From Eubacterium sp. (GTDB taxonomy: Bacteria; Bacillota; Clostridia; Lachnospirales; Lachnospiraceae), in the NCBI GenBank assembly GCA_017459675.1, contig JAFUCM010000179.1, positions 1 through 45,005 on the forward strand: 45,005 nt of DNA. Reading direction: 5' to 3'. Shown in pieces: positions 9,832-41,166 of the stretch. Position numbers and translations under genes: made by a program. How positions within the stretch are numbered: the first letter of the stretch is position 1; each line of letters begins with the position of its first letter. The notes beneath the pieces are model-generated. The model did no database searches and was not told where the DNA came from. It was given only the letters and a program-made list of their open reading frames with translations.

Positions 9832-9870
9832 AAAACAACAGTGCCGGAAAACCGGTACTGTTGTTTTTTT
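9831..9870. terminator. Bidirectional terminator between AraC regulator and FGGY kinase
   Basis: AACAACAGT-CCGG pairs with CCGG-ACTGTTGTT around AAAA, with A-rich and T-rich flanks giving a U tail on both strands. It overlaps the last base of the AraC stop and the stop of the convergent kinase. Confidence 0.9.
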
Positions 9871-11462: not shown

Positions 11463-11556
11463 GCCGGTTTCTCCTTTCCATTGCATTAATTCAGACATAG
11501 CATTGCGTTGTATCTTTCTGATTCTTCTGAAACTGTCAAAATTTTGTGATGCAACA

Positions 11557-11580
11557 GGGCCACCGCACTTGCGATGGCCC
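11557..11580 (-). terminator. Hairpin after the Rpn-like operon
   Basis: GGGCCACCGC (11557-11566) pairs with GCGATGGCCC (11571-11580) with one wobble around a 4-base loop, 24 bases beyond the stop of the 183-residue gene on the minus strand. There is no strong T-tract, so termination is uncertain. Confidence 0.45.
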
Positions 11581-11604
11581 CTTATCCTTAACTGTACGGT
11601 TATT

Positions 11605-23087: not shown

Positions 23088-24233
23088 TTACTTCAGATCA
23101 ACCCACACATTTCCCTTATCATTGCTCTCAATGCACGCATCGATAAATTTCAGTCCTTCGATCCCTACATCAATTGTCGGATAGAGGTAGTCTCCATGAT
23201 CTTCTCCATACTTCTTTTTCAGAAGTGCGGAGCAATATCCCCGATAAAGATTTCCGAAACTCTCAAAGAATCCTTCCGGGTGGCCGGACGGCAGTCTCGA
23301 CAGGTTTCTTGTCGTATCAAAGTCGTAGTCGCGGGTCGGTGTATAAATCTGCGGCGGCTGATTAATCTTTGTGACGATGAGTCGCTGCGAATCCTTGTGC
23401 TGCCACTCAATAGATCCTTTGTCGCCGAAGATCCGGATCCGGAGTTCGGTTTCGTTTGCGATCGCGACCTGTGACGTCCAGATCATACCGGAGATGCCGC
23501 CTTCATATTCCATCAGCACCTGTGCATTATTTTCCAGCGGCAGGTCGTGATCTTTGGGCAGCCGCTCGAATTTTGCCAGCACCCGCTTCAGCTCCAGCCC
23601 GGTCATGCGGCTGATCAGCGCCTCCACATGTGTTCCGATGTCCGCAAGACAGCCGGACGGACCGGATCTCGCCGGATCCATACGCCAGGTTGCCTGATCG
23701 GAACGGTCGCTGACCATCTGTACCAGCAGCCATTCCTGCGGATATTCAGCTACGATGGTCAGAATATTGCCGATTTCACCCGCCGCAATCATACGGCGCG
23801 CCTGCTCGACCATAACATAACCTGTGTAGGTATAAGTGACACCGAATTGAAGATCGTTTTCTTCTGCGATCTTCTTCAGTTCAATTCCCTCTTCTGTCCG
23901 CAGTGCCAGCGGCTTGTCGCACATGACATTAATACCGTGTTCCAGAAAGCATTTTGCAATCGGATAGTGCGTGTCGTTCGGCGTACAGATCGACACAAAA
24001 TCAATGCCGTCTTCTCTTGCCGCCTCTTTTTCCGCCATCTCCTCATAATTTGCGTATACACGGTCCATATCGCGGACGCCCCACTGCTCTGCCGTCTCTC
24101 TGTTCTTCTCCGGATTTCTGGTAAAACATCCCGCCGTCAGTTCTGCGAGATCATCCATTACCGCACCGTGTCTGTGAACATTTCCGATAAAAGCGCCATT
24201 GCCGCCGCCGATCATTCCAAACTTAAGTTTCAT
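23088..24233 (-). CDS. Gfo/Idh/MocA family dehydrogenase (GGGNGAFIG type)
   Basis: 381 residues. The Rossmann motif is MIGGGNGAFIGNVHRHG, then CTPNDTHYPIAK and the family CDKPLALRT (the EKP Lys is kept, though the Glu is Asp). The C-domain has GPSGCLADIGTHVEALISR and a conserved GHPEGFFESFGNLYRGY. This GGG-x-GAFIG-x-VHR group oxidises sugar-like hydroxyls with NAD(P). It includes glycoside-3-oxidising enzymes, so oxidation of an intact glycoside is possible but unproven. It is the last gene of the operon before a strong terminator and a close paralogue of the gene at 25369. Confidence 0.9.
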   Translation of the reverse strand: MKLKFGMIGGGNGAFIGNVHRHGAVMDDLAELTAGCFTRNPEKNRETAEQWGVRDMDRVYANYEEMAEKEAAREDGIDFVSICTPNDTHYPIAKCFLEHGINVMCDKPLALRTEEGIELKKIAEENDLQFGVTYTYTGYVMVEQARRMIAAGEIGNILTIVAEYPQEWLLVQMVSDRSDQATWRMDPARSGPSGCLADIGTHVEALISRMTGLELKRVLAKFERLPKDHDLPLENNAQVLMEYEGGISGMIWTSQVAIANETELRIRIFGDKGSIEWQHKDSQRLIVTKINQPPQIYTPTRDYDFDTTRNLSRLPSGHPEGFFESFGNLYRGYCSALLKKKYGEDHGDYLYPTIDVGIEGLKFIDACIESNDKGNVWVDLK

Positions 24234-24275
24234 AACACATCTCTCCTGTGAATTAATATACGTTTTTTCAAATGA

Positions 24276-25267
24276 TTATTCGTAAAATTCCGGCTTCTCA
24301 GGAAGAGCGATTTCCTTAGCGGTTCCTCCTTCCTCGCGGCACTGTCCGAGTACATATGCGGTCAGGCATGCCATGTAGCCGTCCCATGCAGATGCACCGT
24401 GCGGTGTCTCACCGGCCAGTACAGTGTCTACCCAGTCCTGCATCTCGATGTTGTACGCCTCGATGAATCTGGTCTCCCAGCCCGGCATGATCCCGGATGC
24501 CTTCGTGCAGTCTGTCTTGGTGATTACACGCGGCGGATCCGGCAGCTTTGCGGTTCCGAGATCACCGACAACCTCACACTGGATGTCATAGCCGTAGCCT
24601 GAACTCTGGCTGATCTCAACGTCGATGCAGATGCCCTTCTTCGTACGGAGCATCATGATCTGCGGATCCTGCTCTGACGCGGCAGAACAACCTGGCCGGA
24701 TACATAGTCATCATCCAGGAGCCAGCGGAGTACATCGATCTCGTGTACACCGGAGTTCTTAATGGACATATCAGATGTCATCGTTGCTGCGTGTGTCATA
24801 TTTCTGTGGCATGCATGTACGATCAGCGGAAGTCCGATCTTGCCTTCCTGGATCGTCTTCTTCAGCTCTACATAGCCCGGATCGAAGCGGCGCATGAAAC
24901 CGACCTGGACGATGCGCTTTCCGAACGCCTGCTCAGCTGCAACGATTTCCTCACACTCGGAAATTTCCGTTGCCAGCGGTTTTTCGCAGAATACATACTT
25001 GCCCGCTTTAATGCTGGCCATAACATACTGTGCGTGCGCCGGATCCCATGTTGTGACCATAACAGCCTCAACCTCCGGACTGTTGATCAGTTCCTCGCCG
25101 TCCTCATAAAACTTCGCACCGTACTGTTCTGCCACCTTGCGGCCGACTTCCTGATTTACTTCTGATACAGCTACAACTCTGCAGCCGGTGATGCGCTCCT
25201 GAAAACGTTTCACATGTTCTCTGCCGATTGCACCAAGTCCGACCACACCGATTTTTAACTCTCTCAT
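24276..25267 (-). pseudogene. Gfo/Idh/MocA dehydrogenase, IolG-like, interrupted by a frameshift
   Basis: Two adjacent frames make one protein. 24653-25267 gives the N-terminal Rossmann half (GVVGLGAIGREHVKRF, FCEKPLATEIS, GFMRRFDPGYVELKK) and runs out of frame after VLPRQS. From about 24671-24685 the downstream frame reads ASEQDPQIMMLRTKKG and continues to FIEAYNIEMQDW and the stop at 24276. The sister gene at 31026 is unbroken across this point (DPQMVILRSKSG). A single-base loss near 24671-24685 explains it. It is either a true mutation or a sequencing error. The intact ancestor would be a myo-inositol-2-dehydrogenase-like enzyme of about 330 aa. Confidence 0.85.
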
Positions 25268-25368
25268 CTGTTCAGCCTCCCAAAATAAATTTGCTTTATT
25301 ACGCGGAGCATATCTCCCGCCAGGAGGATTAAGATCCCGCTGCCGGGAGAAAACCTCTATAAGAGATA

Positions 25369-26535
25369 TTATGCCTGATTCCCCGGATTATCAAGACTTA
25401 CCCAGACATTGCCTTTTTTGTGACTTTCAACACATGCTTTAACATAACGGACACCTGCAAGACCATCCTGCACATGCGGATAATAATATGCCGAAGCATC
25501 TTTTTCTATTCCGTTCGCCCTGTCCAGAAGACACGCACAAAATGCATGATAAAGATTTGCGTAAGCCTCATAAAACCCTTCCGGATGTCCAGTGGGAAGA
25601 CGGCAGGCTGCCTTGCTGAAATCACTCATATAACTGCGGTTTGCCGAAAGGATCTGCACCGGCTCATTGAGGTATGAGACATGAAGGTGTGTCATATCCT
25701 CATGAGACCACTCGATGGATCCTTTCTCTCCAAACACCTTGAGGAACATCGTACAGTCGTGTCCCGTAGCGACATTCGAGGTCCACGCAATCCCGTGGGC
25801 GCCATTGTCCAGTCCGAATAATACGCGGGAAATCGTCTCCAGAGGCGCATCCTCCGGATAATAACCAAAGTCAGCCAGCACCTTTTCGATCTTCAGGCCG
25901 GTCGCCGCCTGGATCAGATAAAACAGGTGCACGCCCATTGCGCCGGTGACATTGGACTCTCCCGAATAAGCAGGATCGCCAATCCACTTTGTGAAGTCAT
26001 CTTCATCATTGTTCAGTCCGAGAATCATCCAGTCCTGCGGATATTCTGCAATGACATCAATGACCTTCCCGATTTTTCCGGATGCCACGAGTTCTCTGCA
26101 CTCCCGGATTGCAGGATAATGTGCATACGTATAAGGAATGCATACCTCCAGATTTTTCCGGGCAGCGAGCGCTGCGATCTCTTCCGCCTCATCGACATAC
26201 AATGTCATCGGCTTCTCGCAGACAACATTGATTCCATGCTCCAGAAAGCATTTTGCAATCGGGTAGTGTGTCTGGTTCGGCGTCACAATACTGACGAAAT
26301 CGATGCCGTCCTCACGCTTTGATTCCGCCTCTGCCATCTCCTCATAATTCGCATAAATCCGGTCCGGCGACACGCCCCAGAACTGACCGTCCTTCAGGTT
26401 CTGTTCCGGATTTCTCGTAAAACTGCCCGCAGTCAGAACCGCAAGGTTATCCATCGCCGATCCGCGCCGGTGGCTGTTGCCGATATTTCCGCCATTGCCG
26501 CCGCCGACCATTCCCATGCGCAACTTTTCCCGCAT
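25369..26535 (-). CDS. Gfo/Idh/MocA family dehydrogenase (GGGNGGNIG type)
   Basis: 388 residues, the closer relative of the gene at 23088: GMVGGGNGGNIGNSHRRGS, TPNQTHYPIAK, CEKPMTLY near residue 120 and the shared GHPEGFYEAYANLYHAF near 330. ATG at 26533-26535 has AGGAGG 9 bases upstream; the track's earlier start is not needed. It probably oxidises a ring hydroxyl of a sugar or cyclitol. It sits between the frameshifted IolG-like gene and an MDR dehydrogenase, giving an oxidoreductase-rich set. The two GGGNG paralogues may act on different positions or stereoisomers. About 100 bp of stem-rich spacer (TCTCCCG/CGGGAGA) precede the next gene. Confidence 0.9.
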   Translation of the reverse strand: MREKLRMGMVGGGNGGNIGNSHRRGSAMDNLAVLTAGSFTRNPEQNLKDGQFWGVSPDRIYANYEEMAEAESKREDGIDFVSIVTPNQTHYPIAKCFLEHGINVVCEKPMTLYVDEAEEIAALAARKNLEVCIPYTYAHYPAIRECRELVASGKIGKVIDVIAEYPQDWMILGLNNDEDDFTKWIGDPAYSGESNVTGAMGVHLFYLIQAATGLKIEKVLADFGYYPEDAPLETISRVLFGLDNGAHGIAWTSNVATGHDCTMFLKVFGEKGSIEWSHEDMTHLHVSYLNEPVQILSANRSYMSDFSKAACRLPTGHPEGFYEAYANLYHAFCACLLDRANGIEKDASAYYYPHVQDGLAGVRYVKACVESHKKGNVWVSLDNPGNQA

Positions 26536-26589
26536 TTCATTATCCTCCTGTTCCGGTGATCCGTTCCTTCTCAATCCTGCGTATCCCGT

Positions 26590-27633
26590 TCATACCCCCT
26601 GCTGCGGGTATACAACAACTTTTACCGCTTCTTTTGACCGCATCAGGGCAATTCCTTTCTGAATGTCATCGAGCGATATTTCATGTGTTACCAGCTGTTC
26701 CGCGCCAAAGTCCGGATCCTGCAGCAGGCTGACCGCAGGGCCGAAGCTGTTTTTCGTGCTCAGCGTCGCAGTAATGGTAAGCTCTTTATTGTTAATGTCT
26801 CCCGGGCGGATCGTAGAATGCTGCGTCATATTCTGACCGAAAATAAGGATGCGTGCCCCGCAGTTCGTGATATCAATAATCTGTTCCAGAACGGCTCCCG
26901 CGCCGACTGCATCTATGGCGATATCCGCCAGACTCCCCCATGCCTTCTCAAGTTCCGCTGCCAGATCATCTTCAGCCGGATTCAGCACCAGGTCTGCTCC
27001 TGCCTTTCTGGCATCCTCCATGCGTGAAGGCATCGTTTCGCAGACCGCGATATCCCGCACGCCGTAGCGGCGCAGCGCCCTGACAAAAAGCAGTCCGATC
27101 GCGCCGGCGCCGAAAAGCACCACCTTCTCATAAGCCTGCGGATTTATTTTCATCATGCCGTTCATCACACAGGCGAGCGGCTCCGCCAGAGCGCCCAGTT
27201 TGTCCGGCATCTCTGCCGGGACATGATACAGCTGTTTTTCCGGCATGATACAGTATTCCGCAAAGCCGCCGTCGCGCACCTGCCCCGTATTCACTGCGTT
27301 TCTGCAGAGATTATAATTCCCCTTCCGGCATTCCGGACACATGCCGCACCGGATATTCGGCTCCGCGACAACTTTGTCACCCGGCCGGAACTGTGTGACA
27401 GCAGTTCCTGTCTTCTCCACGATTCCGACGAACTCGTGTCCGAGGATTGTTCCCGGCTTTGCGTACTGTCCCGGCGGCACCGCCAGCACATGCAGATCAC
27501 TTCCGCAGATACTGCATGCCCTTATCTTAATTAAAATATCATCCGGATTCTGAATCTCCGGAACTTCTACCGATTCAACCTCCAGCACACCGTCTCCCCG
27601 AAAGACGGCAGCGCGCATTTTTTCCTGCTTCAC
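26590..27633 (-). CDS. Zinc-type medium-chain alcohol dehydrogenase (sorbitol/idonate/threonine DH group)
   Basis: 347 residues. It has catalytic zinc ligands in CSICGSDLH and GHEFVG, the structural zinc lobe CGMCPECRKGNYNLC (four Cys) and the NAD motif LFGAGAIGLLFVRALRR. Members oxidise a secondary alcohol of a polyol or sugar acid with NAD. It begins with GTG at 27633, preceded by AAGGAG at 8 bases. It is about as long as the paralogue at 28513 and has the same VPPGQYAKPGTILGHEF stretch. It follows the TIM-barrel gene by 36 bp in the operon. Confidence 0.92.
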   Translation of the reverse strand: MKQEKMRAAVFRGDGVLEVESVEVPEIQNPDDILIKIRACSICGSDLHVLAVPPGQYAKPGTILGHEFVGIVEKTGTAVTQFRPGDKVVAEPNIRCGMCPECRKGNYNLCRNAVNTGQVRDGGFAEYCIMPEKQLYHVPAEMPDKLGALAEPLACVMNGMMKINPQAYEKVVLFGAGAIGLLFVRALRRYGVRDIAVCETMPSRMEDARKAGADLVLNPAEDDLAAELEKAWGSLADIAIDAVGAGAVLEQIIDITNCGARILIFGQNMTQHSTIRPGDINNKELTITATLSTKNSFGPAVSLLQDPDFGAEQLVTHEISLDDIQKGIALMRSKEAVKVVVYPQQGV

Positions 27634-27669
27634 AGCTTCTGCTCCTTTTTTGCCTTATCGCAATGCGTG

Positions 27670-28509
27670 TTATTTCATCAGCTCTGTCTTCAGTGTCTCA
27701 ATATCCTTTTTCAGAAGATCGATCGGATCTTTCGCCTCTTTTCTCAGCGGAAGCTGCGTGTAATAATTTTCAAATACAAACCATCCGCTGTAATCGTGTT
27801 CCTTCAGCCATGCAATCTGCTCGTAAAAATGGGAATCTCCCTCGCCGAGCAGTTTACTGCTCCACGCTTCGCCGATTCCGTCCTTGACGTGAAGCTGATT
27901 GATCATATACGGATAGACCGCAGGAAGATGATCCATCGGGTTGTATCCGCGGAAACACATGTAATTCTGGGAATCATAGAACAGCGTCAGGTTGTCCCGG
28001 TTGATTTCCTCCGCCAGACTGATAAAAGATTCCGAGAGAATCGCCGTCTCAGCAGCAATCGTGACATCATGCTCTTTTGCCCTGTCACAGGCATACTGCA
28101 GAGCCTCTACAACATGCATCCGGTCCTCATCGGTATGTATATCGTTGTCCTCAAAATGCGGAATCATCAGCACTTTAATCCCCATATCAGCGACTGCTTC
28201 CAATGAAATATCAAGGTGTTCGTATGCGATATCTCCCGCTTCCGTGCCCCTGCCGTGCCGCAGTCCGTGATTGTTCAGGTCGTTCATTACAATCGAAATC
28301 AGCTCGATTCCGTACTGCTGTGCCGTCTCAACATACAGTTCCCGGACACGCTTATGAGAAAGTTTGAATCCTGTATTCGGAAATCCCGCTTCGATCTGAA
28401 GCCCGTCCAGACCCAGTTCTGACGCCAGTCTGATGGAAAAAATCGAATCCCCCGGAAGACACCATTCCGGAACAGCCAGTTTATATTTGTTCGCATCAAA
28501 TTGTTTCAT
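27670..28509 (-). CDS. Sugar phosphate isomerase/epimerase-like TIM barrel
   Basis: 279 residues of the AP endonuclease 2/xylose-isomerase-like superfamily: LAVPEWCLPGDSIFSI, GLDGLQIEAGFP, MIPHFEDNDI with a conserved acid/His, DVTIAAETAI (Glu ligand), LTLFYDSQNYM, NQLHVKDGIGE (His-x-Lys-Asp) and WFVFENYY. These give an intact divalent-metal site. Related proteins are epimerases, dehydratases (including 3-dehydroshikimate dehydratase) or keto-glycoside lyases, so the substrate is open. The gene is only 3 bases downstream of the MDR gene at 28513, with a strong GAGGAGAGG site inside the junction. Confidence 0.85.
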   Translation of the reverse strand: MKQFDANKYKLAVPEWCLPGDSIFSIRLASELGLDGLQIEAGFPNTGFKLSHKRVRELYVETAQQYGIELISIVMNDLNNHGLRHGRGTEAGDIAYEHLDISLEAVADMGIKVLMIPHFEDNDIHTDEDRMHVVEALQYACDRAKEHDVTIAAETAILSESFISLAEEINRDNLTLFYDSQNYMCFRGYNPMDHLPAVYPYMINQLHVKDGIGEAWSSKLLGEGDSHFYEQIAWLKEHDYSGWFVFENYYTQLPLRKEAKDPIDLLKKDIETLKTELMK

Positions 28510-28512
28510 TTT

Positions 28513-29535
28513 CTACCTCTCCTCATTTGGATATATTAAGACTCTGCAGGCTTTCTTATTGCGCATCGCATCAATTCCCTCGTGAATCCGCTCCAGAGGA
28601 AGCCTGTGCGTGATGAAGCGGTCCAGTCCGAGATCCGGGTTCTTCAGCAGCTCCAGCGCTCCCGGGAAGTCCTTGCCGAGTGCCCCCACCAGGGATATTT
28701 CATTCATGACAAAGAATCCGGGTGCGATTTCCGACCTCGCGTTGTTATCCAGTCCGAACAGCAGAATTCTTCCCTGCGGATTGATCAGCCCCTGCGCTTC
28801 CGGGAGGATATTCCCCCGTCCGACTGCGTCAATAATCAGATCCGCACCAAATGGCCAGTTTTCCTTCACAACATCCGCCAGGGTCTCTTTCTCAACATCC
28901 ACAACCAGATCAGCGCCACAGTCTCTGGCCTCCTGCACGCGCTCCGCTCCCTTGGCTGTCACAATCAGATTGGTTACGCCAAAGGTCTTAAGCACACGGA
29001 TAAAGGTCAGACCGATCGGGCCGGCGCCGTACAGAATGACATAGTCGACAGGGGAAGGATGCACCTTCCCAAGCGCACTCACCACACAGGCAAGCGGCTC
29101 TGTCTGCGCCACCAGATCGGGACTGATTGTCTGATCAACATGATAGATCTGTCCGCGTGACACTTTTGCAAACTCTGCAAATCCTCCGTCCGCGAGCTGT
29201 CCGTAGTGATCTGAATTGGAGCAGAGGTCCCCTCTGTTGTGCGTACATTCATAACAGGTGCCGCACCGGACGCGCGGGTTGACCGCAACACGCTCGCCGA
29301 TCCGGAACCCTTCCACCTCTTCCCCCATTTCCACGATTGTTCCGCAGAATTCATGTCCATAGATGATGCCGGGTTTCATATACTGGCCCGGCGGGATTGC
29401 AAGTCCGTGAATATCACTGCCGCAGACGCTCGCTGCATCGACCCGGATGATGACATCCTCCGGTTTTGTAATAACCGGTTTCGGAACCTCTTTCACTGTA
29501 AGTGTTCCGGGCCCCTCGAAAATTGCTGCCTTCAT
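28513..29535 (-). CDS. Zinc-type medium-chain alcohol dehydrogenase
   Basis: 340 residues: ASVCGSDIHGLAIPPGQYMK, GHEFCGTIVEMG, the structural zinc lobe CGTCYECTHNRGDLC and LYGAGPIGLTFIRVLK for NAD. All four structural cysteines and the catalytic Cys/His/Glu are visible. It is a close paralogue of 26590, so the pair likely handles two steps or two stereoisomers of one pathway. It is tightly coupled to the TIM-barrel gene downstream and 58 bp downstream of the third MDR gene. Direction and substrate are not readable. Confidence 0.92.
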   Translation of the reverse strand: MKAAIFEGPGTLTVKEVPKPVITKPEDVIIRVDAASVCGSDIHGLAIPPGQYMKPGIIYGHEFCGTIVEMGEEVEGFRIGERVAVNPRVRCGTCYECTHNRGDLCSNSDHYGQLADGGFAEFAKVSRGQIYHVDQTISPDLVAQTEPLACVVSALGKVHPSPVDYVILYGAGPIGLTFIRVLKTFGVTNLIVTAKGAERVQEARDCGADLVVDVEKETLADVVKENWPFGADLIIDAVGRGNILPEAQGLINPQGRILLFGLDNNARSEIAPGFFVMNEISLVGALGKDFPGALELLKNPDLGLDRFITHRLPLERIHEGIDAMRNKKACRVLIYPNEER

Positions 29536-29593
29536 ACCTTACTCACCCCGCTTTCCTGCATTTGATTCCTGAAACTTGATTCTCAAAAAATAT

Positions 29594-30772
29594 TTAATAA
29601 AACTGACTTACCATTACTTTGCCTGGAGATCCGGCGCCCGCATCCAGAATCGCCTGATGCGTCTGCTCAAGATTGTAGCGCCCGCTGATCATTTCCCTGA
29701 CGTCAAGGCATCCGGAAGCAAACATCCTGAGAACTCCCGGGAAAATATCATATCCCGCTGATCCGCTGCAGCAGTACACCGAAGTCCCATTGTAGATGAA
29801 CGGCGTCATATCAATCGGCGGAACCTTTCCGGGAAGACCGATCTGCACGAGTTTTGCATGTGCAGACATAATGGCCGCGGCCATCGGATAGGTTGCTCCC
29901 GGATTTCCTGCAGCCTCCACATTGACATGACATCCGATCCCGTCTGTCAGTCCCATAATAACATCCGAAAGATCACCCGGGGACGCAAACTCCATCGGAT
30001 TAAAGCATGCATCCGCTCCCATTTTCTCAGCCATCTTCAGGCGGCCTGCGTTGGTATCAAAAACAAATACCTTTGCCGCACCGGATGCCCTGCAGAGAGC
30101 GGCTGCTGAAAGGCCGATCGGTCCCGCTCCGATTACGGCGACATTTGCTCCCGGACGAATTCCCCCGGCATTCACCATTACCGAGTGGTAAGCGACACTC
30201 ATCGGCTCAGCCAGCGCACCCACCTCGAACGCTGCGATTTTATCGCCCAGACGATCCGCAATGTCATTAATCTTAATAATGTATTTTTCCGGAACGATCG
30301 CATACTCACAGAACGCACCGTCCGCAGAAAGACCGATGTCTTCTCTGTTTTCGCAGTTATTGACCAGACCGATCCTGCAGTTTCTGCATTTTCCGCAGTA
30401 ATGAATCTGCTCAACTGCAATAATATCGCCGCGCTGATATTGTCCCTTCAGATTTTTACCAACCTCTGCGATCTCACCCGCATATTCGTGGCCCAAAATC
30501 ACAGGAAGACGTGTATGACAGTTAAATACCATATATCCGTCATCTTTGGATGCAATGGAGTGTATGTCACTGCCGCAGACACCGCACGCACCGACTTTAA
30601 TGAGGACTTCGTCCTCTTTTGGTTCCGGTACCGGAACATCCTCCATCCCGCAGGAAAGATTGTTCCAGCAGGATCCTGATGTATAAGATCGGCGGTCGTT
30701 TCTTTCGCGTGCACTCAATTTCGTACCCGGAAGTGGATTCCAGTCACCTCTTAACACAAATGCTCTCATCAT
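29594..30772 (-). CDS. Zinc-type alcohol dehydrogenase, inosose-dehydrogenase-like (IolM group)
   Basis: 392 residues, longer than its two neighbours. After an unusual N-terminal stretch of about 40 residues it has GACGVCGSDIHSI, an insert to PVILGHEYAG, the structural lobe CGKCRNCRIGLVNNC, SVAYHSVMVNAGGIRPG and VIGAGPIGLSAAALCR. The insert and the SVAY-GGIRPG segment match the subgroup that includes Thermotoga scyllo-inosose 3-dehydrogenase, a suggestive but not conclusive match. GGAGG lies 8 bases before ATG-ATG. It is the first gene of the downstream operon half, after a terminator and a 200-bp spacer. Confidence 0.9.
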   Translation of the reverse strand: MMRAFVLRGDWNPLPGTKLSARERNDRRSYTSGSCWNNLSCGMEDVPVPEPKEDEVLIKVGACGVCGSDIHSIASKDDGYMVFNCHTRLPVILGHEYAGEIAEVGKNLKGQYQRGDIIAVEQIHYCGKCRNCRIGLVNNCENREDIGLSADGAFCEYAIVPEKYIIKINDIADRLGDKIAAFEVGALAEPMSVAYHSVMVNAGGIRPGANVAVIGAGPIGLSAAALCRASGAAKVFVFDTNAGRLKMAEKMGADACFNPMEFASPGDLSDVIMGLTDGIGCHVNVEAAGNPGATYPMAAAIMSAHAKLVQIGLPGKVPPIDMTPFIYNGTSVYCCSGSAGYDIFPGVLRMFASGCLDVREMISGRYNLEQTHQAILDAGAGSPGKVMVSQFY

Positions 30773-30976
30773 CTTTATATTCCTCCTTCGCTCAGCCTGT
30801 CTTGCGTTGTTTTCGCCTGTTTATATTGTATCTGTGAATCCCTGCGGCTTATATCGGAATCTTGACAGAGATTTCCCGAAAATACTGTTACAGGCCGGCT
30901 GAAAATGAAATATATTGACTTCATACCGGAAGATCCGGCGCAAAGGAGGCAAACCGCTTCACACCCTGGCAAACTT

Positions 30977-31018
30977 AAAACCCGGAACTCCTGCATGATC
31001 CAACGCAGAAGTCCCGGG
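30977..31018 (-). terminator. Terminator dividing the catabolic operon
   Basis: CCCGGAACTCCTGC (30981-30994) pairs with GCAGAAGTCCCGGG (31005-31018) with two mismatches, and a TTTT follows on the minus strand. It lies 7 bases after the stop of the IolG-like gene, so transporter genes and enzyme genes may be separate transcripts. The remaining 200 bases to 30773 contain AT-rich -10-like hexamers (TACAAT, TATAAA) but no convincing -35. Confidence 0.75.
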
Positions 31019-31025
31019 GATGTCG

Positions 31026-32039
31026 TTATCTATAGAGTTCCGGGCGTTCGATCATCTCGACAGGGACTACAGTGCCGCCTTCCAGACGTGATTTCCTGCA
31101 TGCCTCAGCCGCTGCAGCTGCCGCATAGCCGTCCCACGCCGTCGGGCCCTTCTGTTCATCCGCTTCTACGCAGGCAAACCACTCTCTGAGTTCTGTGACG
31201 TACGCTTCCGGGAATCGCGCAATCCAGTCCGGATCAATAAAATAGCCGCGATTGCTGTTTTTCCGGATATAAGCCTTTGCCGGATCCGGAAGCTGTGCCG
31301 TTCCCTCTTCACCGACGACTTCACAGTGAATATCATATCCATACCGGCAGTTCATATATATTTCCAGATCGATATGAACACCGCTCTTGCTACGCAGAAT
31401 TACCATCTGCGGATCAATCAGATCCGGATCTGCATTCCGTGTACTCTTCGGACAGATCAGCTGTGCTGTCTCATACTCGTCATCAATCAGCCAGCGTGTC
31501 ACATCGAACTCATGCACAAGTGCCCCGCTCGCAGACATATCGGTCGTATGCTTCTCACCGGTCGTCGGCATCGCGTTTCTGTGCTGCTCATGCAGCAGCA
31601 GCGGCGCACCGATCTCGCCGGAAACAATGGCCTCCCTGATCTGTCTGTAACCCGGGTCATATCTGCGCATGAAACCGACCGTCAGATATCTCTTTCCCGC
31701 CTCCAGTTCTGCATTGATAATGTTGATGCAGGCTGCAGCCGTGTTGGAAAGCGGTTTTTCGCAGAAAACATACTTCCCGGCTTTGATACTGGAAACAACA
31801 AACTCTTCATGATTTCCGTCCCATGTGGCCACGAGCACCGCGTCGATCTCATCGCTGCGGATCAGTTCATGCGGGTCTTCAAACACCTTAACATCCGGAT
31901 ACTTATCTGTTACCTTCTGAATATTTGCCGGAACAATGTCACTCACCGCAGTGATTTTCGCGCTGGTGATTTCGTTCATGATAATATCTGTGTGCATGCG
32001 GCCGATTCCGCCCGCTCCTACCAGTCCGATTCTTAACAT
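31026..32039 (-). CDS. Gfo/Idh/MocA dehydrogenase, inositol 2-dehydrogenase-like
   Basis: 337 residues. It has LVGAGGIGRMHTDI, VATWDGNHEEFVV, FCEKPLSNTAAA and the IolG-type GFMRRYDPGYRQIRE, then GALVHEFDVTRWL with the catalytic His-x3-Asp. GFMRRYD is typical of myo-inositol 2-dehydrogenases and relatives that give 2-keto inositol. It lies immediately downstream of the importer ATPase (73 bp) and so is probably the first intracellular step. The other genes of the classic Bacillus iol pathway (iolB, iolC, iolD, iolJ) are absent from the window, so inositol itself is not certain. AAGGGAT precedes the ATG. Confidence 0.9.
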   Translation of the reverse strand: MLRIGLVGAGGIGRMHTDIIMNEITSAKITAVSDIVPANIQKVTDKYPDVKVFEDPHELIRSDEIDAVLVATWDGNHEEFVVSSIKAGKYVFCEKPLSNTAAACINIINAELEAGKRYLTVGFMRRYDPGYRQIREAIVSGEIGAPLLLHEQHRNAMPTTGEKHTTDMSASGALVHEFDVTRWLIDDEYETAQLICPKSTRNADPDLIDPQMVILRSKSGVHIDLEIYMNCRYGYDIHCEVVGEEGTAQLPDPAKAYIRKNSNRGYFIDPDWIARFPEAYVTELREWFACVEADEQKGPTAWDGYAAAAAAEACRKSRLEGGTVVPVEMIERPELYR

Positions 32040-32112
32040 AGTTATCCCTTCCGCCTTTTCTATGGCATTCGGCTGTTTCGAGGCAAACTCCTCCCCCGGA
32101 CAGTCTTGGTTT

Positions 32113-33627
32113 TTACAGTGTGTTCGCCAGAATCCGCTCCTGTGTCATCTCTTCTTTCTCTGTAATCTCCAGAGAAATGCTTCCGCGCCGCATGACATAA
32201 ATGCGGTCACTCATACCAATCAGCTCCGGCAGCTCAGAAGAAATCATGATGATTGCCACACCCTGCTGAGCGATCTTATCCATAATCGAATAAATCTCTG
32301 CCTTTGCATTGACATCAATACCTCTGGTCGGCTCATCCAGAATCAGAAGATCCGGATTACTTTCCAGCCATTTCGCGAAAAGCACCTTCTGCTGATTTCC
32401 GCCGGACAGCGTATTGACCAGCTGGTTCATAGAGCGGCAGATGACATTCAGCTCTTTGATTTTCGTCGCAGCTTCCTGGCGCTCCAGACGGCTGTTGATG
32501 ATATGGTTCTTAAAGAGCTTCTTAATGGATGCCATCGAAATATTCTCTTTGATATCTTTCTCAACAATCAGGCCGTCGATTTTACGGTCCTCTGAGAGAT
32601 ACGCAATTCCCTTTTCGATGGATTTGATCGCCGTCGGTTTCACGTATTCCTCGCCGCGGTAATAGATCTTGCCGCCAAAGTAATCGCGCACGCCGAAGAT
32701 ACCGCGGGCAAGCTCAGAACGCCCGGATCCGACCAGGCCGCCCATGCCGACGATCTCACCCTTTCTGACATGGAAGTCAATCGGATCTGTGTTCGGTCCG
32801 ATTTTAAATCCTTCTACACGCAGAACATCCTCATCACCCGGCACGTGCTCACACTCAAACATGTTGGTGATGGTGCGGCCGACCATAAGTTTTACGACCT
32901 TATCGTAGTCATAGTCTTTCATGGACATTGTCTCAATCGACTGGCCGTCACGGAGTACTGTCAGCCTGTCGCCGATCTCATTAAACTCGTCCATGCGGTG
33001 CGAGATATAGATCATACTCACGCCCCTGCTCTTCAGCGAGCGGATCAGATCAAACAGGTGATCGATCTCGCTGGCGGTCAGTGACGCTGTCGGCTCGTCC
33101 AGAATCAGAATCTTGGAGTCATAGGACAGTGCTTTTACAATCTCGACAACCTGCTGGCGCGCCGTAGAGAGGTCACGGACCATCGTGCGCGGATTGATAT
33201 CGGAAAATCCGAATTCATCCAGATATTCACGGCTCTTCTGGTAAATGTATTTATGATCCACAAAGCCGTTCTTTTTCGGCTCCCGGCCGAGGAAAATGTT
33301 ATGAGCAATATCCAGATTGAGGCAGAGGTTCAGTTCCTGGTGAACAAATGCCACACCCTTCTCACGGGCTTCGCGCGGTCCGCTGACGACATATTTCTGT
33401 CCTTCCAGAATCATCTCGCCCTCATCTGCCGGAATATTGCCGCCGAGAACCTTCATCAGCGTCGATTTTCCTGCGCCGTTCTCGCCGACAAGAATATGAA
33501 CCTCGCCCGGTTCCAGATCAAAATTGACGTCTGAGAGGATTTTGACGGTTGTGCCGGCAATCTTTTTTCCATATGCATCGAAAATATATTTCGTGATGTG
33601 CTTCATCTCAAGGATTTTTTCAGCCAT
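32113..33627 (-). CDS. Sugar ABC transporter ATP-binding protein (RbsA/MglA type)
   Basis: 504 residues with two fused ATPase domains. The first has Walker A GENGAGKST near 50 and a Walker B ILDEPTAS; the second has a degenerate Walker A (GLVGSGRSELARG) and the signature LSGGNQQKVLFAKWL with LILDEPTRGID. One active and one weak site is normal for this group. It powers uptake of pentoses, hexoses or inositols. It is encoded third in an importer operon together with two permeases and a lipoprotein. The RBS AAGGGGG precedes the ATG. Confidence 0.95.
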   Translation of the reverse strand: MAEKILEMKHITKYIFDAYGKKIAGTTVKILSDVNFDLEPGEVHILVGENGAGKSTLMKVLGGNIPADEGEMILEGQKYVVSGPREAREKGVAFVHQELNLCLNLDIAHNIFLGREPKKNGFVDHKYIYQKSREYLDEFGFSDINPRTMVRDLSTARQQVVEIVKALSYDSKILILDEPTASLTASEIDHLFDLIRSLKSRGVSMIYISHRMDEFNEIGDRLTVLRDGQSIETMSMKDYDYDKVVKLMVGRTITNMFECEHVPGDEDVLRVEGFKIGPNTDPIDFHVRKGEIVGMGGLVGSGRSELARGIFGVRDYFGGKIYYRGEEYVKPTAIKSIEKGIAYLSEDRKIDGLIVEKDIKENISMASIKKLFKNHIINSRLERQEAATKIKELNVICRSMNQLVNTLSGGNQQKVLFAKWLESNPDLLILDEPTRGIDVNAKAEIYSIMDKIAQQGVAIIMISSELPELIGMSDRIYVMRRGSISLEITEKEEMTQERILANTL

Positions 33628-33639
33628 AATACCGCCCCC

Positions 33640-34629
33640 TTATTGCAACAGCCTGTTCTTGACGTTTTCGAAGATAATCGCGATCAGGATGATGATACTC
33701 TGTACAGCCGTGTACATATAATAGTTCACGCCCATCAGTCCCAGAATATTCTGAATCGTATAAATTGTCAGGACACCGAGAACGGAACCCCATGCCGTTC
33801 CGATGCCGCCGAACAGACTTGCACCGCCGAGAACTGCAGCGGTGATCGCCGTAAAGGTAAATTCCGTACCTCCCATTGTGCAGACCGAGTTGTTGACGCG
33901 GGCTGCCATCAGAATTGCGCCGAGCGCGGAAGAGATTCCGCAGATCACATATACCATAATGGTCGTGAAGTTTGCGCTGATGCCGGAAAGCGCACTCGCT
34001 TCCTTGTTCAGTCCGACCGATGTCAGCGCGCGGCCGAAGGTTGTCTTGTGCAGAATAAAGAAACAGATTGCAACGACCAGGAGCATAATCCAGACCATTG
34101 AAGAAAGGCCGAGGAATCTCGCACGGCCGACTGCCAGTACATTGTCCGGAAGCGGCGTAATCGCCTTACCATTACTGACAATCTGCGCAATACCGAAAAT
34201 AATATATCCGGTTCCCAGTGTTACAATGAATGCCGGTATCTTCATGATCTGAACCAGAAAACCATTGACAAAACCGAAGAATGCGCCGACTGCCAGCGTG
34301 ATCAGAACGCCGATAAATACCGGCATTCCCACAGAAACTGTCGTCCATCCAAAGATATAAGCACAGAATCCAAGCAGATATCCGACGGAAAGGTCAATAC
34401 CTCCGGTCATCAGGACAAATGTCATACCGAGACAGCAGATCGCCGCGATCGCTGCCTGGTTGATAATGCCAAGCATATTGGTTCCTGTAATAAATGTTCC
34501 CGGCCGTATAATCATCCCGGCCACCCAGACGGCGGCAAAGATGATAATATTACCGTATCCCTTTACAAAATTTCTTGCACGCTGTCTGCCTGTGATTTTT
34601 TCGACAGCGACCTGGGTTGTTTCAGCCAT
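33640..34629 (-). CDS. Sugar ABC transporter permease (RbsC family), second
   Basis: 329 residues, hydrophobic throughout, with about eight to ten transmembrane helices. It has the family core GGIDLSVGYLLG, GFVNGFLVQIMKIPAFIVTLG and LGGASLFGGIGTAWGSVLGV. It is cytoplasmic-membrane embedded and pairs with the second permease (34648), since no permease appears duplicated elsewhere. GGAGGGAG lies before the ATG, and it starts 18 bp after the other permease gene. Confidence 0.94.
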   Translation of the reverse strand: MAETTQVAVEKITGRQRARNFVKGYGNIIIFAAVWVAGMIIRPGTFITGTNMLGIINQAAIAAICCLGMTFVLMTGGIDLSVGYLLGFCAYIFGWTTVSVGMPVFIGVLITLAVGAFFGFVNGFLVQIMKIPAFIVTLGTGYIIFGIAQIVSNGKAITPLPDNVLAVGRARFLGLSSMVWIMLLVVAICFFILHKTTFGRALTSVGLNKEASALSGISANFTTIMVYVICGISSALGAILMAARVNNSVCTMGGTEFTFTAITAAVLGGASLFGGIGTAWGSVLGVLTIYTIQNILGLMGVNYYMYTAVQSIIILIAIIFENVKNRLLQ

Positions 34630-34647
34630 ATGTTCTCCCTCCGTCTA

Positions 34648-35601
34648 TTAGAATACCTTCGCCGTCTTCAGTGCCTTGTTTCTGCTGTAAACGCTTGCGC
34701 CTACCACCAGGATAATCGCAGCGCCGACAACCAGGTTCTGATAGAACGGATCAATTGCGAGCATGTCCAGAGAATTCCGCAAGAATCCGATAATCAGCGC
34801 GCCGAGAACCGACATCCACGCAGCACCCTCGCCGCCGAGCATGCTGACACCGCCAATCAGGGAGGCCGCAACTGCATCGAGCTGATAGGTAGAGCCCTGT
34901 GTCGGATGCACCGTCGCCATCTGTGCCGAGAGCAGAATTCCGGCAATTGCAGAATACAGTCCGCAGAGTGCAAAGGCAAAAACCTTGATCACATCCGGAT
35001 TGATACCCTCTGTCTTAATAACGCTCTCACTGCCGCCGAGTGCATAGATGTGTTTTCCCATTCTTGTATATTTCAAAATAACCGTTGTGATCACCAGAAG
35101 TGCGACCATAATCCAGGTATTGATCGGGATGCCGATCACCAGGTTATTTCCGATTGCAGAATAAGAAGCCGGCAGCCCGCTGATCGAGCTTCCTTTACCG
35201 ACGACCAGTGCAAGACCCAGCGTAATCTGACCCGTTACGTAGGTAGCTACGAATGGCGGAATATTGATCTTCGCAGCCAGAAGACCATTGATAATTCCGA
35301 TCACCAGGCCGACCAGCGCACCCGTTATCATCGCGATAAAAATATTAATCCCTCTGAGCATCATAAACGCACTGACCATCGCACAGAAAGCCATGACACC
35401 GCCGGTTCCGAGGTCAATTCCCTTGATAATCAGAACCAGTGTCATTGCAAGTGCACAGATCGCGATCGTAGAAGCCTGTCTTGTTACATTCATAATATTG
35501 GTAAACGTAAAGAATCCGGGAATGCGGCTTCCGAAAATACACAGTGCAATAATCACCAGTGCATATATAATATATTTTGTTTTTATTTTACTCTTTTGCA
35601 C
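34648..35601 (-). CDS. Sugar ABC transporter permease (RbsC family), first
   Basis: 317 residues with the same core as its neighbour: IIKGIDLGTGGVMAFCAMV, GIINGLLAAKINIPPFVATY and GGVSMLGGEGAAWMSVLGA. It starts with GTG (35599-35601), with AGGAGTGA upstream. A strong hairpin lies between it and the binding-protein gene. Two different permeases in one operon imply a heterodimeric channel, as in a minority of sugar importers. Confidence 0.94.
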   Translation of the reverse strand: MQKSKIKTKYIIYALVIIALCIFGSRIPGFFTFTNIMNVTRQASTIAICALAMTLVLIIKGIDLGTGGVMAFCAMVSAFMMLRGINIFIAMITGALVGLVIGIINGLLAAKINIPPFVATYVTGQITLGLALVVGKGSSISGLPASYSAIGNNLVIGIPINTWIMVALLVITTVILKYTRMGKHIYALGGSESVIKTEGINPDVIKVFAFALCGLYSAIAGILLSAQMATVHPTQGSTYQLDAVAASLIGGVSMLGGEGAAWMSVLGALIIGFLRNSLDMLAIDPFYQNLVVGAAIILVVGASVYSRNKALKTAKVF

Positions 35602-35660
35602 GTTATCTCACTCCTATCTCAGGTATCCCTCAAGCCTGCGAATCTGTCCTCTGCCAGAAA

Positions 35661-35692
35661 GCGGCCCGGATGGGATTCCCCACCCGGGCCGC
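35661..35692 (-). other. GC-rich hairpin after the binding-protein gene
   Basis: GCGGCCCGG (35661-35669) pairs perfectly with CCGGGCCGC (35684-35692), 50 bases after the binding-protein stop and 60 bases before the first permease. There is only a short T stretch (TTTC). Such stems usually stabilise the upstream mRNA or attenuate downstream reading, so more binding protein than permease is made. Confidence 0.7.
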
Positions 35693-35740
35693 CTCATTTC
35701 TCCGGGGTGCCGAAACAATGCTGTCTGCCTTTCACCCTTC

Positions 35741-36874
35741 TTAGTAAGCTACAGATTCAGACTCCTCGATGTTGTCCGGGCTCATGAAGAAGTATCCCGG
35801 ATCTGTCTCTTTCTCAACTTCTTCCTCTTTGATCTCACCGGAAAGCAGCTGTGTCATGATCTCGCCGCTGATCTGGCCTTCTTTGCCCGGATACTGTGCG
35901 ACGCATCCGTACAGGTCACCCTTCTTGATTGCGTCAAGTGCGGAAATGTTGCCGTCAACTGAGATAATGCAGAGGTCTGCCGGATTCAGGCCGCGGTTCT
36001 GAACTGCGGAGATAACACCTGAAAGCATACCATCAGAGCAGAGGAAGATGCCTGCCATATCCGGATCGGATGCCAGCATGTTCTCTGTAACCTGCATAGC
36101 TACGTCAGAGAGCCAGTTACCATTCTGCTGGTTAACGAGCTGAACCTTGCCGCCGCCGAGTTCTTTAATACCTGCCTCAAAGCCTGCTGCACGAAGCTCG
36201 CCGCCCATTGCACCTGCAGCGCCGCGTACGGTACAAACCTTACCTTCGCCGATCTTGTCGACCATCTGTTTTGCAGCTTCATAGCCGATCGCATAGTTGT
36301 TGGATCCTACGTGGGAAAGGAAGAGATCTTCATTTCCTTCGTCAATTGACGCATCGATGATGATAACCGGGATGCCGGCATCTTTTGCCTTCTGCAGTGC
36401 CGGAATCAGAGAAGAACCATCCATCGGAGCGATGATCAGACCGTCTACCTTACGGTTGATCGCGTTCTCAACCTGCTCAACCTGTTTTGCGACTGCGAGC
36501 TCATCACCGGAAAGTGTCAGCTCAAATGTGTAGCCGGCTGCCTCGACTGCCTTCTGGCACTCTTCAACCATGATTCTCTGGAACTCATTGTTTGTGATCG
36601 TTTTGGTAGAGAATACGATGGTTCCGCTTCCGCTTGCTGCCGGAGCTGCTGCTTCTTCGCCGGCATCCTCAGCCGGTGCTTCAGCGGTTTCCTCAGCTGC
36701 GCTGCTGGCCGCGCTGCTTGCTGCAGCTTCGCTGACTGCTTCGCTTGCTGCGGAAGCTGCTTCTTCTGCTGCACTTGATGCCGCAGAGGATCCGGTACTT
36801 CCGGAAGAACCACATGCTGCAAGGCTGACAGCCATACCAAGCGTCAGAATCATTGCCAAAATCTTTTTCTTCAT
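35741..36874 (-). CDS. Sugar ABC transporter substrate-binding lipoprotein (type I fold)
   Basis: 377 residues. Signal peptide KKKILAMILTLGMAVSLAAC has the lipobox LAAC, so the protein is lipid-anchored outside the membrane. Next is a low-complexity linker of about 60 residues of Ser/Ala/Glu/Pro, then a type I periplasmic binding domain (FSTKTITNNEFQRIMVEE, VDGLIIAPMDGSSLIPALQ, VIIIDASIDEGN, FLCSDGMLSGV). Family members bind pentoses, hexoses or inositols; the ligand is not identifiable. ATG at 36872-36874 has AAAGGAG 8 bases upstream; the ATG two codons before it lies too close to that site. It is the first gene of the importer operon. Confidence 0.94.
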   Translation of the reverse strand: MKKKILAMILTLGMAVSLAACGSSGSTGSSAASSAAEEAASAASEAVSEAAASSAASSAAEETAEAPAEDAGEEAAAPAASGSGTIVFSTKTITNNEFQRIMVEECQKAVEAAGYTFELTLSGDELAVAKQVEQVENAINRKVDGLIIAPMDGSSLIPALQKAKDAGIPVIIIDASIDEGNEDLFLSHVGSNNYAIGYEAAKQMVDKIGEGKVCTVRGAAGAMGGELRAAGFEAGIKELGGGKVQLVNQQNGNWLSDVAMQVTENMLASDPDMAGIFLCSDGMLSGVISAVQNRGLNPADLCIISVDGNISALDAIKKGDLYGCVAQYPGKEGQISGEIMTQLLSGEIKEEEVEKETDPGYFFMSPDNIEESESVAY

Positions 36875-36989
36875 TCCCATTCTCCTTTCTTCCCGAGAAC
36901 AACTGTGCCCAAGAAAGTGTCTGCGGCGTCGAAATTGTCTTAATTGAACATTTAATTAAATCAATAACATCAACACCGTATCCCCTCAG

Positions 36990-37309: not shown

Positions 37310-38395
37310 ATGGACGTGCTTATGCCTAAATATTTAACCATCGCAGATTACATTGAAGCACAGATTTTAAACCAGACCTGGCTGCCAAACCAGCAGCTGC
37401 CCTCAGAGAAAGAGATGATGCAGCAGTTTCAGGTCAGTCGGCAGACAATCCGGAACGCACTGGAATACCTTTCCAAAAAGGATCTGGTGTATTCTGAGCA
37501 GGGACGCGGCACGTTTGTCTCTGACAGCAGACGCTCCTCCGCAAACCCGGGGAACAAAAATGTCGCGCTGATTCTGGGCAAACTCGACAGTTATATCTTT
37601 CCCTATAAAAGTGTCGGCATCAATGCTGTACTGACCCGGAACGGGTATACAAGCAGCGTCTTTGCCTCCAACATCCGGATCGACCATCAGGACCAGCTGA
37701 TCCGGAACGTCCTGAGCGGCAGTTATGCAGGTGTGATCATGGAAGTCGCCAAGGCGGCACTTCCGCGTCACAATCCCGAGCTGCTCGAGGAACTCCGGTC
37801 CCGTATGCCCGTCGTGCTGATCGACGGTTATTACCGCGAGACCGATATCCCTTACGTCGCCATCGACGACTTCAATGGCGGCTACATGGCAGCAGAACAC
37901 CTGATCGCAAAAGGACACCGAAGAATTTTCCACGTCGGTATGTTAGACGCAATTCAGGGAATGCTGCGTTACCAGGGATATGCGCGCGCACTGACAGATC
38001 ACGGAATTCCGCTGAACGATGACTTGATTTACTGGTGTGTGGAAGAAGATCAGAATTTCATGTCCGAGGCACGTCTGACCGAGATCTGCCAAAAGATCCT
38101 TTCGTGCACAGCCGTCTTTTTCTACAACGATTTGATGACGATGCGGATTCTCCCCACGCTGCTGAAAATGGGGGTCAAAATCCCCGATCAGCTCGCCGTG
38201 ATGGGATATGATGATTCCAACCAGTATATTCACGGCGTTCCGATCTCCAGCATATGCTATCCGAAAGAACGGCTCGGCGAAAAAGCAGCGGAAAATCTCC
38301 TGCACCTGATCAGAAATCCGGAGTTTGATGCAAATTATCTCTTTCAGCCGGTTCTGATCGAGCGTGAATCTACCAATCTGATTTTGAAAGAGTAA
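37310..38395 (+). CDS. AraR-like transcriptional regulator (GntR HTH + LacI-type sensor)
   Basis: 361 residues. A GntR winged helix comes first (PKYLTIADYIEAQI, LPSEKEMMQQFQVSRQTIRN, SEQGRGTFVSD; residues about 5-74), then a LacI/GalR-type ligand domain (NVALILGKLDSYIF, PVVLIDGYYRETDIPYVAIDD, GYDDSNQYIHGVPISSI). This chimeric layout is that of B. subtilis AraR, which it also resembles at its N-terminus, but the inducer need not be arabinose. The start may be the ATG at 37322; both have weak sites. It is divergent from the importer operon and probably represses it through the flanking ACGT operators. Confidence 0.92.
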   Translation: MDVLMPKYLTIADYIEAQILNQTWLPNQQLPSEKEMMQQFQVSRQTIRNALEYLSKKDLVYSEQGRGTFVSDSRRSSANPGNKNVALILGKLDSYIFPYKSVGINAVLTRNGYTSSVFASNIRIDHQDQLIRNVLSGSYAGVIMEVAKAALPRHNPELLEELRSRMPVVLIDGYYRETDIPYVAIDDFNGGYMAAEHLIAKGHRRIFHVGMLDAIQGMLRYQGYARALTDHGIPLNDDLIYWCVEEDQNFMSEARLTEICQKILSCTAVFFYNDLMTMRILPTLLKMGVKIPDQLAVMGYDDSNQYIHGVPISSICYPKERLGEKAAENLLHLIRNPEFDANYLFQPVLIERESTNLILKE

Positions 38396-39286: not shown

Positions 39287-39321
39287 TTTTTGCAGTCCGC
39301 AAAATTCACAGTGTTTCTTTT
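39275..39321. terminator. Terminator between the AraC regulator and aroD
   Basis: GAAACA-TGTGA with inner TTTGC pairs with GCAAA and TCACA-TGTTTC across a short loop, and T residues follow. The convergent genes both end inside it, so it probably serves both strands. One pair in each arm mismatches. Confidence 0.65.
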
Positions 39322-40106: not shown

Positions 40107-40194
40107 TCCAGCCTCCTCTCCTGAAACACTTCAAGCCCCGTTTCTTACCTTGCACGCCGCACGCGCAGCAAGAAAGACCGGTCCTCTGCGTTCA

Positions 40195-41135: not shown

Positions 41136-41166
41136 GTCGTGTTTAAGCCGCAAGGCCGAGCACGAC
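41136..41166 (-). terminator. Hairpin at the 3' end of the transposase gene
   Basis: GTCGTG (41136-41141) pairs with CACGAC (41161-41166), with an inner GCC-GCAA-GGC stem. On the minus strand a TTTGTC follows. It overlaps the last codons and stop of the transposase. Confidence 0.5.

Follow-up and report, generated by a model that had tools for sequence, protein, structure and literature searches.

Results

A dehydroquinase-like gene pair beside the importer-dehydrogenase cluster

What compound is consumed by a gene cluster that joins a ribose-type importer to Gfo/Idh/MocA dehydrogenases, zinc-dependent medium-chain dehydrogenases (MDRs), and a TIM-barrel protein? The question is raised by contig JAFUCM010000179.1 of Eubacterium sp., a stretch of 45,005 nucleotides that is called the window here and that corresponds to contig C11 of a 2.98-Mb, 220-contig assembly (G000; listed contamination, 6.85%). 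The initial annotation had described this cluster as an unassigned multi-dehydrogenase pathway. The genes run on the minus strand from 36880 to 23088 in the order substrate-binding lipoprotein (SBP), permeases P2 and P1, ATPase, IolG1, IolM-like, MDR_B, TIM barrel, MDR_A, GG1, a broken IolG2, and GG2. The unit probably extends beyond position 36874 to two regulators, of the GntR-LacI and AraC types, and to a pair of type I dehydroquinase-like genes, aroD2-aroD1 (39321-40962), that had been missed and that lies 2.4 kb past the end of the importer. We propose, with slightly less than even confidence, that the locus is an operon for the anaerobic breakdown of a cyclitol, either an inositol isomer or a close derivative, in which AroD1 and AroD2 would perform Schiff-base chemistry on the ring.

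The two AroD-like proteins differ sharply in how much of the dehydroquinase active site they keep. Against dehydroquinase structures in the PDB, AroD1 was matched with an E value of 1.4e-20 and AroD2 barely (1.8e-4). The window AroD1 keeps Glu51, Arg91, Glu95, His152, Lys179, and Arg223, with Glu95, His152, and Lys179 as the catalytic Glu-His-Lys. In an alignment numbered according to 1gqn, in which we take the residue roles to be those of the ordinary enzyme, His143, Lys170, Arg82, and Arg213 were present in all five AroD1 proteins and Glu86 in four (Gln in Butyricicoccus faecihominis). Among the AroD2 proteins, the catalytic His was lost in five of five and the Lys in four of five; the window AroD2 has the Lys and carries Arg at the His position. 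The SAPGQ loop, presumably the carboxylate side of the substrate site in type I dehydroquinases, was absent from all five AroD1 proteins (that of genome G782 not being among them), and [AG]PGQ was found in 36 of 36 ordinary AroDs (33 loci plus own C81, G313b, and G169b, with G327:C58 left out). In a tree of 27 rows, the six AroD1 and six AroD2 sequences formed a joint group of 12 (support 100/99) apart from the 15 ordinary rows, with AroD2 alone also supported at 100/99. The simplest reading would be an old tandem duplication that has been retained as a pair.

The same pair was found within related operons. In B. faecihominis (genome G301, locus L030) and in G782 (locus L119), which belongs to the family set of G301, aroD2-aroD1 lies between the ATPase and IolM genes, inside the operon. 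In three further loci, the host's own contig C14, the same-genus genome G081, and genome G201 of another genus (L041, L087, and L042), the two are fused into one protein of 506-529 residues in a sibling operon, here operon II. After the fusion gene come an MDR_B homologue (77-83% identical to that of the window) and a second MDR; C14 and the G081 contig extend far enough to show IolG2 (94%) next. Further on in G081 are a lipoprotein gene, judged by look, and a permease fragment, and in G201 a permease, an ATPase, and a permease precede the fusion. Three of 397 family genomes were found to carry the fusion, and among 391 class genomes G000 was the sole one with it; an AroD1 match was obtained in two of 87 genomes of the B. 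faecihominis family, G301 among them. The C14 and G081 fusions gave a ratio of nonsynonymous to synonymous differences per site (pN/pS) of 0.08, so the fusion is under constraint.

The host has a further AroD on contig C81 that bears the SAPGQ motif and lies beside an aroE-looking gene. Its open frame (L043, 6907-8193) spans 428 residues, and short frames adjoining AroD in some relatives match the extra part, which we take to be shikimate kinase; this suggests an AroD-AroK fusion.

Conservation and spread of the cluster

Eleven importer and enzyme genes (SBP, P2, P1, ATPase, IolG1, IolM-like, TIM barrel, MDR_A, GG1, GG2, and MDR_B) recur in G201 (contig C6, locus L029) at 66-83% identity. Over these genes, pN/pS between the window and L029 was 0.14-0.27, with synonymous sites saturated. 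A 5.5-kb locus, L028, holds the ATPase end, IolG1, TIM barrel, MDR_A, GG1, and part of GG2, and IolM is absent between its IolG1 and TIM-barrel genes. The order in B. faecihominis is SBP, P2, P1, ATPase, AroD2, AroD1, IolM, TIM barrel, IolG1, and GG2, with MDR_B past the regulator; L119 keeps this order from P2, inside which that stretch ends, to GG2. Because other genomes show the cluster in largely conserved order, although some genes are absent or relocated, and because of the pN/pS values, the cluster is not a chance assembly. Among 299 family genomes, G000 and G201 were the two with a TIM barrel of more than 60% identity, the remaining matches being 30-40% identical, and a search for close relatives only among 84,980 species genomes returned three loci.

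Compared with L030 and L119, the importer genes of the window are 72-82% identical, and importer, IolM, and TIM barrel together 68-82%, whereas the corresponding value is just 52% for each of IolG1, the GntR regulator, and AroD1. SecA identities are 80% to G201 and 53-62% to G301 and G782. That the importer, IolM, and TIM-barrel genes are closer than SecA, and the other three are not, is no more than suggestive of a horizontal transfer into B. faecihominis and the related G782. Near the operon of B. faecihominis, L093 (10828-14199) carries glycyl radical enzyme-looking and activase-like genes, judged by look and not seen there in L119, and L094 (10067-19900) carries CoA transferase-looking genes and another ribose-type importer beside the operon.

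Contamination was considered as the origin of the duplicate-looking genes and was rejected, despite the figure listed for the assembly. The sole full-length secA found in the assembly sits on the window contig and has 88% DNA identity to that of G081, so this contig is not evidently a contaminant; the IolG2 gene of C14 is also 88% identical in DNA to that of G081, and C11 and C14 therefore look like parts of one genome.

Enzymes encoded by the cluster

The importer, the TIM-barrel protein, and the three zinc MDRs that the initial annotation had recognized were recovered by profile scans and open reading frames (ORFs), and the third MDR proved to resemble IolM, the scyllo-inosose 3-dehydrogenase. 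Against NF041097 (cut-off 450), its same-place orthologues scored 444.7 bits in G201, 444.6 in G782, and 452 in G301, close to the window protein, which is 39-43% identical to three full-length IolM proteins lying in clusters with IolN. Distinct proteins of 510-525 bits were found by the same search in G081, G201, G301, and G782, the first three clustering with IolN, which makes the IolM-like protein of the window an IolM paralogue. In G000 the gene adjoining IolN is truncated by the contig end.

The four Gfo/Idh/MocA genes had been assigned to the right families, but three are intact and the fourth, IolG2, is split into overlapping ORFs of 204 and 126 residues. Compared with the intact paralogues on C14 (94% identical) and in G081, it is short by 25 bases, and is thus either a pseudogene in the present assembly or an assembly error. 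IolG1 is nearest, among PDB entries, to the Bacillus subtilis-type IolG; Lys95 and His176 are kept, and the Asp of B. subtilis IolG is replaced by Gly at position 172. GG1 and GG2 both matched 3v5n best, with 3dty close behind. In the excerpt of PMC5969746, these two uncharacterized structures share a clade with scyllo-inositol dehydrogenase, with a Lys-Asp-His triad. GG2 keeps Asp198 and His202, and GG1 has Ala212 where the motif places the triad Asp; the MAFFT alignment of GG1 and GG2 with IolG was wrong around the active site, and motif positions and PDB alignments were used instead.

The pairing of the enzymes described earlier is real but not close, with identities of 48% for GG1 and GG2, 46% for IolG1 and the intact IolG2 paralogue, and 41% for MDR_A and MDR_B. 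Recent duplication was considered for IolG2 and GG2, whose copies elsewhere in the assembly are 94-95% identical as proteins, and was rejected: GG2 and its C84 copy differ at synonymous sites by a pS of 0.64, and the window IolG2 DNA matches that of C14 at 870 of 992 positions. Because synonymous differences are this large, the copies are not very recent. In the TIM barrel, Glu154, Asp179, His207, and Glu247 were invariant in 19 of 19 alignment rows and, judging from related enzymes, presumably form a metal site. It gave no match to IolO (NF041099) at E 0.001 in the NCBIfam scan. Pfam, NCBIfam, and PDB sequence scans, at the thresholds applied, yielded no dehydroshikimate dehydratase match for it either.

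Other inositol and carbohydrate genes of the host

The earlier statement that classic iol genes are absent holds for the cluster, and IolD was not found on C11; elsewhere in the genome, however, IolD (866.8 bits; cut-off 715) and an adjoining IolE (397.6 bits; cut-off 290) are encoded on C139, and IolN matches above the cut-off of 245 were confined to C193 (513 bits) and C143 (290 bits), with none on C11; iolB, iolC, and iolJ were not searched genome-wide. Since IolD, IolE, and IolN are encoded elsewhere, the window cluster would represent a further, paralogous cyclitol pathway. Other combinations of Gfo, TIM-barrel, MDR, and importer genes occur on C84 and C175, MDR and TIM-barrel genes on C102, and 21 Gfo matches genome-wide, making the window cluster one of several such systems in this host.

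C193 (L103) and the loci L104, L105, and L106 carry a cluster of the Thermotoga maritima type with IolM, IolN, and an MDR, accompanied by an AraC regulator; L103 and L104 also have a TIM barrel with a below-cut-off IolO match (180.9 bits on C193 against an NF041099 cut-off of 300). On C84 (L044, 2858-13085), a third cluster combines a ribose-type importer with an MDR, a TIM barrel, and a pair of neighboring GGGNG dehydrogenases, one of them the 95% identical copy of GG2; its regulator is weakly like the GntR-LacI regulator (24%). The window itself holds a second carbohydrate region at 2017-11630 (Table 1).

Table 1. Features of the window, with coordinates and supporting matches
Feature	Coordinates	Strand	Matches and conservation
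SBP, substrate-binding lipoprotein, ribose/allose type	35741..36880	-	NCBIfam D-allose SBP 109.9 bits (below cut-off 335); 73% to L029, 72% to L030
P2, ABC permease	34648..35601	-	ORF; 79% to L029 and L030; 82% to the part present in L119
P1, ABC permease	33640..34629	-	NCBIfam sugar permeases, below cut-offs; 72-77% in L029, L030, L119
ABC ATPase, double-domain sugar type	32113..33627	-	NCBIfam xylose-type ATPase 508 bits (below cut-off 699); 80-83% in L029, L030, L119; 90% over the end present in L028
IolG1, IolG-like Gfo/Idh/MocA dehydrogenase	31026..32039	-	NF052679 397.9 bits (cut-off 540); PDB 3mz0 E 4.7e-100
IolM-like zinc MDR dehydrogenase	29594..30772	-	NF041097 442.6 bits (cut-off 450)
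MDR_B, zinc dehydrogenase, RspB/PRK10083-like	28513..29535	-	PRK10083 208.1 bits (cut-off 376); PDB 4ilk RspB E 6.8e-50
TIM barrel, isomerase/epimerase-like	27670..28509	-	PF01261 (AP_endonuc_2)
MDR_A, zinc dehydrogenase, PRK10083/threonine dehydrogenase-like	26590..27633	-	PRK10083 205.8 bits (cut-off 376)
GG1, GGGNG Gfo/Idh/MocA dehydrogenase	25369..26574	-	PDB 3v5n E 8.7e-81
IolG2, IolG-like dehydrogenase gene, frameshifted	24276..25267	-	ORFs 25267-24653 and 24656-24276
GG2, GGGNG Gfo/Idh/MocA dehydrogenase	23088..24233	-	PDB 3v5n E 2.2e-96; 95% identical copy on C84
GntR-LacI hybrid regulator, divergent from importer	37310..38395	+	PF00392 and Peripla_BP_3; same-place regulator 49% (L029), 52% (L030)
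AraC-family regulator	38399..39286	+	PF12833 and AraC_binding; only 28% to same-place AraC gene of L029
AroD1, type I dehydroquinase-like	39321..40106	-	PF01487 133.3 bits; TIGR01093 119.5 (cut-off 139.3)
AroD2, degenerate type I dehydroquinase-like	40195..40962	-	PF01487 49.6 bits
Transposase, DDE type (DUF772/DDE_Tnp_1_6)	41143-42597	-	directly upstream of aroD2
OYE-family reductase	2017-3099		
Transketolase-like pair	3195-4936		by look only
IolE-like TIM barrel	6430-7314		199.2 bits (cut-off 290)
Levoglucosan dehydrogenase-like Gfo	7332-8462		350 bits (cut-off 650)
AraC-like regulator	8956-9831		
FGGY kinase	9870-11630		

Discussion

Proposed function

The near-threshold score of the IolM-like protein and the closeness of IolG1 to B. 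subtilis IolG lead us to favor an inositol-like substrate. The cyclitol and the repeated oxidation and rearrangement suggested by the initial annotation fit the IolG, IolM, scyllo-inositol dehydrogenase clade, and TIM-barrel families and are thus partly supported, and calling the pathway unassigned was overstated because IolM-type and IolG-type enzymes are recognizable. The gene combination as such does appear undescribed: a search limited to open-licence PubMed Central found no account of it, and excerpts of the gut inositol literature (PMC8355322, PMC12482443, and PMC9430895) treat the classical iol route.

In the pathway that we envisage, the ribose-type transporter would import the cyclitol, and IolG1 together with GG1 and GG2 would use NAD(H) to introduce and remove ring ketones, the latter two serving for stereochemical shuffling. 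The IolM-like enzyme would then make a diketo-cyclitol or a similar second ketone. AroD1, with AroD2, may attack a ring ketone through its Schiff-base Lys and eliminate a beta-hydroxyl or assist ring opening, taking the place that IolN has in pathways of the T. maritima type; the TIM-barrel protein would subsequently isomerize, and MDR_A and MDR_B would oxidize or reduce the keto-hexonate-like, open-chain acid products. From the loss of the SAPGQ loop and the gene company, we infer that AroD1 acts on a neutral keto-cyclitol. A more specific idea, which we hold only tentatively, is that AroD2-AroD1 is a heteromeric or fused enzyme of the dehydroquinase fold, with one catalytic and one degenerate subunit, that anaerobes recruited to dehydrate or open keto-cyclitols by way of a Schiff base.

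Several observations weigh against the proposed role of the pair. The AroD tree was midpoint-rooted and carries a long-branch warning, above all for AroD2, and AroD1 alone is supported at only 92/92. Between the window and B. faecihominis, pN/pS was 0.43 for AroD1 and 0.63 for AroD2, values by which AroD2, at least, is under weak constraint over that distance. The Arg retained by AroD1 presumably contacts the substrate carboxylate in ordinary enzymes, and its retention would speak against a complete change of substrate. IolG1 and GG1 lack the triad Asp. IolN is encoded in trans in four of four genomes (G000, G081, G201, and G301 were searched; G782 was left out), so AroD need not replace it. 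The gene set also varies: the 20.8 kb of L029 contain no AroD pair, the fusion lying elsewhere in that genome, and L030 shows neither MDR_A nor GG1 within its 20.8 kb. In G299, an IolM search (E 1e-80) and an AroD1/AroD2 search were both without a match. Finally, the palindrome-like sequence AAATACAWGTATTT near the divergent regulator promoter is exact in L029 and has three mismatches in the window and in L030, and no operator of this type was found upstream of the window aroD2; as three-mismatch sites also occur elsewhere, this comparison appears neither to link the pair to the regulon nor to exclude a link.

Comparison with known systems and alternative explanations

The closest known system is the inositol pathway of T. 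maritima, reportedly described by Rodionova in 2013 as IolG-IolM-IolN-IolO and encoded by the operon TM0411-TM0416. That pathway also has a ribose-type importer. The window resembles it in its IolG-like and IolM-like dehydrogenases and its TIM-barrel protein, and a similar route for another inositol isomer, in which IolG1 and the IolM-like enzyme make a diketo-inositol, IolN opens it in trans, the TIM barrel and MDRs process keto-hexonates, and AroD is accessory, would accord with the IolM-like score close to the cut-off, with IolN proteins of more than 500 bits in four of four genomes, and with the clusters of IolM, IolN, MDR, and IolO-like TIM-barrel genes in the same genomes. We nevertheless consider it rather unlikely. 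The window cluster has no IolN, its TIM barrel gave no IolO match, its IolM-like set scores 442-452 rather than 510-525 bits, and it has the additional GGGNG and MDR pairs and AroD1/AroD2; moreover, IolN is paired with its own higher-scoring IolM in G081, G201, and G301, and it occurs in G081, where the TIM-barrel search gave only 35% matches. To the classical iol pathway (IolG, IolE, IolD, IolB, IolC, and IolJ) the likeness is confined to an IolG-like dehydrogenase as a plausible first step, since the other enzymes were not found in the cluster, IolG1 scores well below the NF052679 cut-off, and IolD and IolE lie on C139.

The AroD pair itself invites a quinate- or shikimate-type hydroaromatic pathway, in which 3-dehydroquinate would be made, dehydrated by AroD1, and later ring-opened or aromatized. 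Quinate-like substrates had been named in the initial annotation, and the pair adds a reason for them: AroD1 belongs to the type I 3-dehydroquinate dehydratase family (PF01487) and keeps its catalytic residues (His, Lys, and Arg throughout, Glu86 in four of five), and the genome has another, SAPGQ-bearing AroD. Unlike ordinary type I enzymes, however, AroD1 falls under the TIGR01093 cut-off, has lost the SAPGQ loop, has a degenerate AroD2 as its pair or fusion partner, and is encoded within or next to operons for an importer and dehydrogenases. A neutral-sugar type of importer, a TIM barrel with no dehydroshikimate dehydratase match in the scans named above, and dehydrogenases that resemble inositol enzymes also speak against such a pathway. 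We therefore regard this pathway as improbable. Quite improbable, too, is that the pair is an unrelated neighbor of an ordinary polyol cluster. In the window it stands past the end of the importer, beyond two opposite-strand regulators and beside a transposase, and the L029 cluster lacks it; all six pairs found, however, lie in or beside such operons (two inside the operon, one beside it, and three fused in operon II), and the transposase upstream of aroD2 may account for the separation. Conservation of the AraC regulator between them with the cluster is not clearly indicated. A 3-keto-glycoside or C-glycoside pathway, with GG1 and GG2 oxidizing a glycoside and another protein eliminating the aglycone, is least probable of all. 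Excerpts of the literature describe Gfo/Idh/MocA enzymes of this kind acting on 3-keto sugars, such oxidation comes first in the DgpA/DgpBC C-glycoside deglycosylation system, and in the PDB GG2 weakly matches DgpA1 (9m3d, E 2.9e-11). The PF19906 (DUF6379) partner of that system was matched in none of five genomes, the control genomes being likewise silent, and both GG proteins are far nearer to 3v5n and 3dty than to DgpA. To the characterized scyllo-inositol dehydrogenase (5ya8/6ktj) they are only distantly related, with E values of about 1e-14 to 1e-16. The C-glycoside system, we presume, does not include IolG and IolM homologues.

Implications

To our knowledge, anaerobic cyclitol routes beyond the classical iol pathway have been little worked out in gut bacteria. 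Simple annotation may mislabel AroD1 as the AroD of the shikimate pathway, and the compact version of the operon in B. faecihominis DFI.6.109 makes the idea directly testable. If AroD2-AroD1 does dehydrate or open keto-cyclitols, these bacteria would have a third route to break an inositol-type ring, besides IolE/IolD and IolM/IolN, and if the pair does perform the ring chemistry, a well-studied biosynthetic fold would have been reused in catabolism together with a catalytically degenerate partner.

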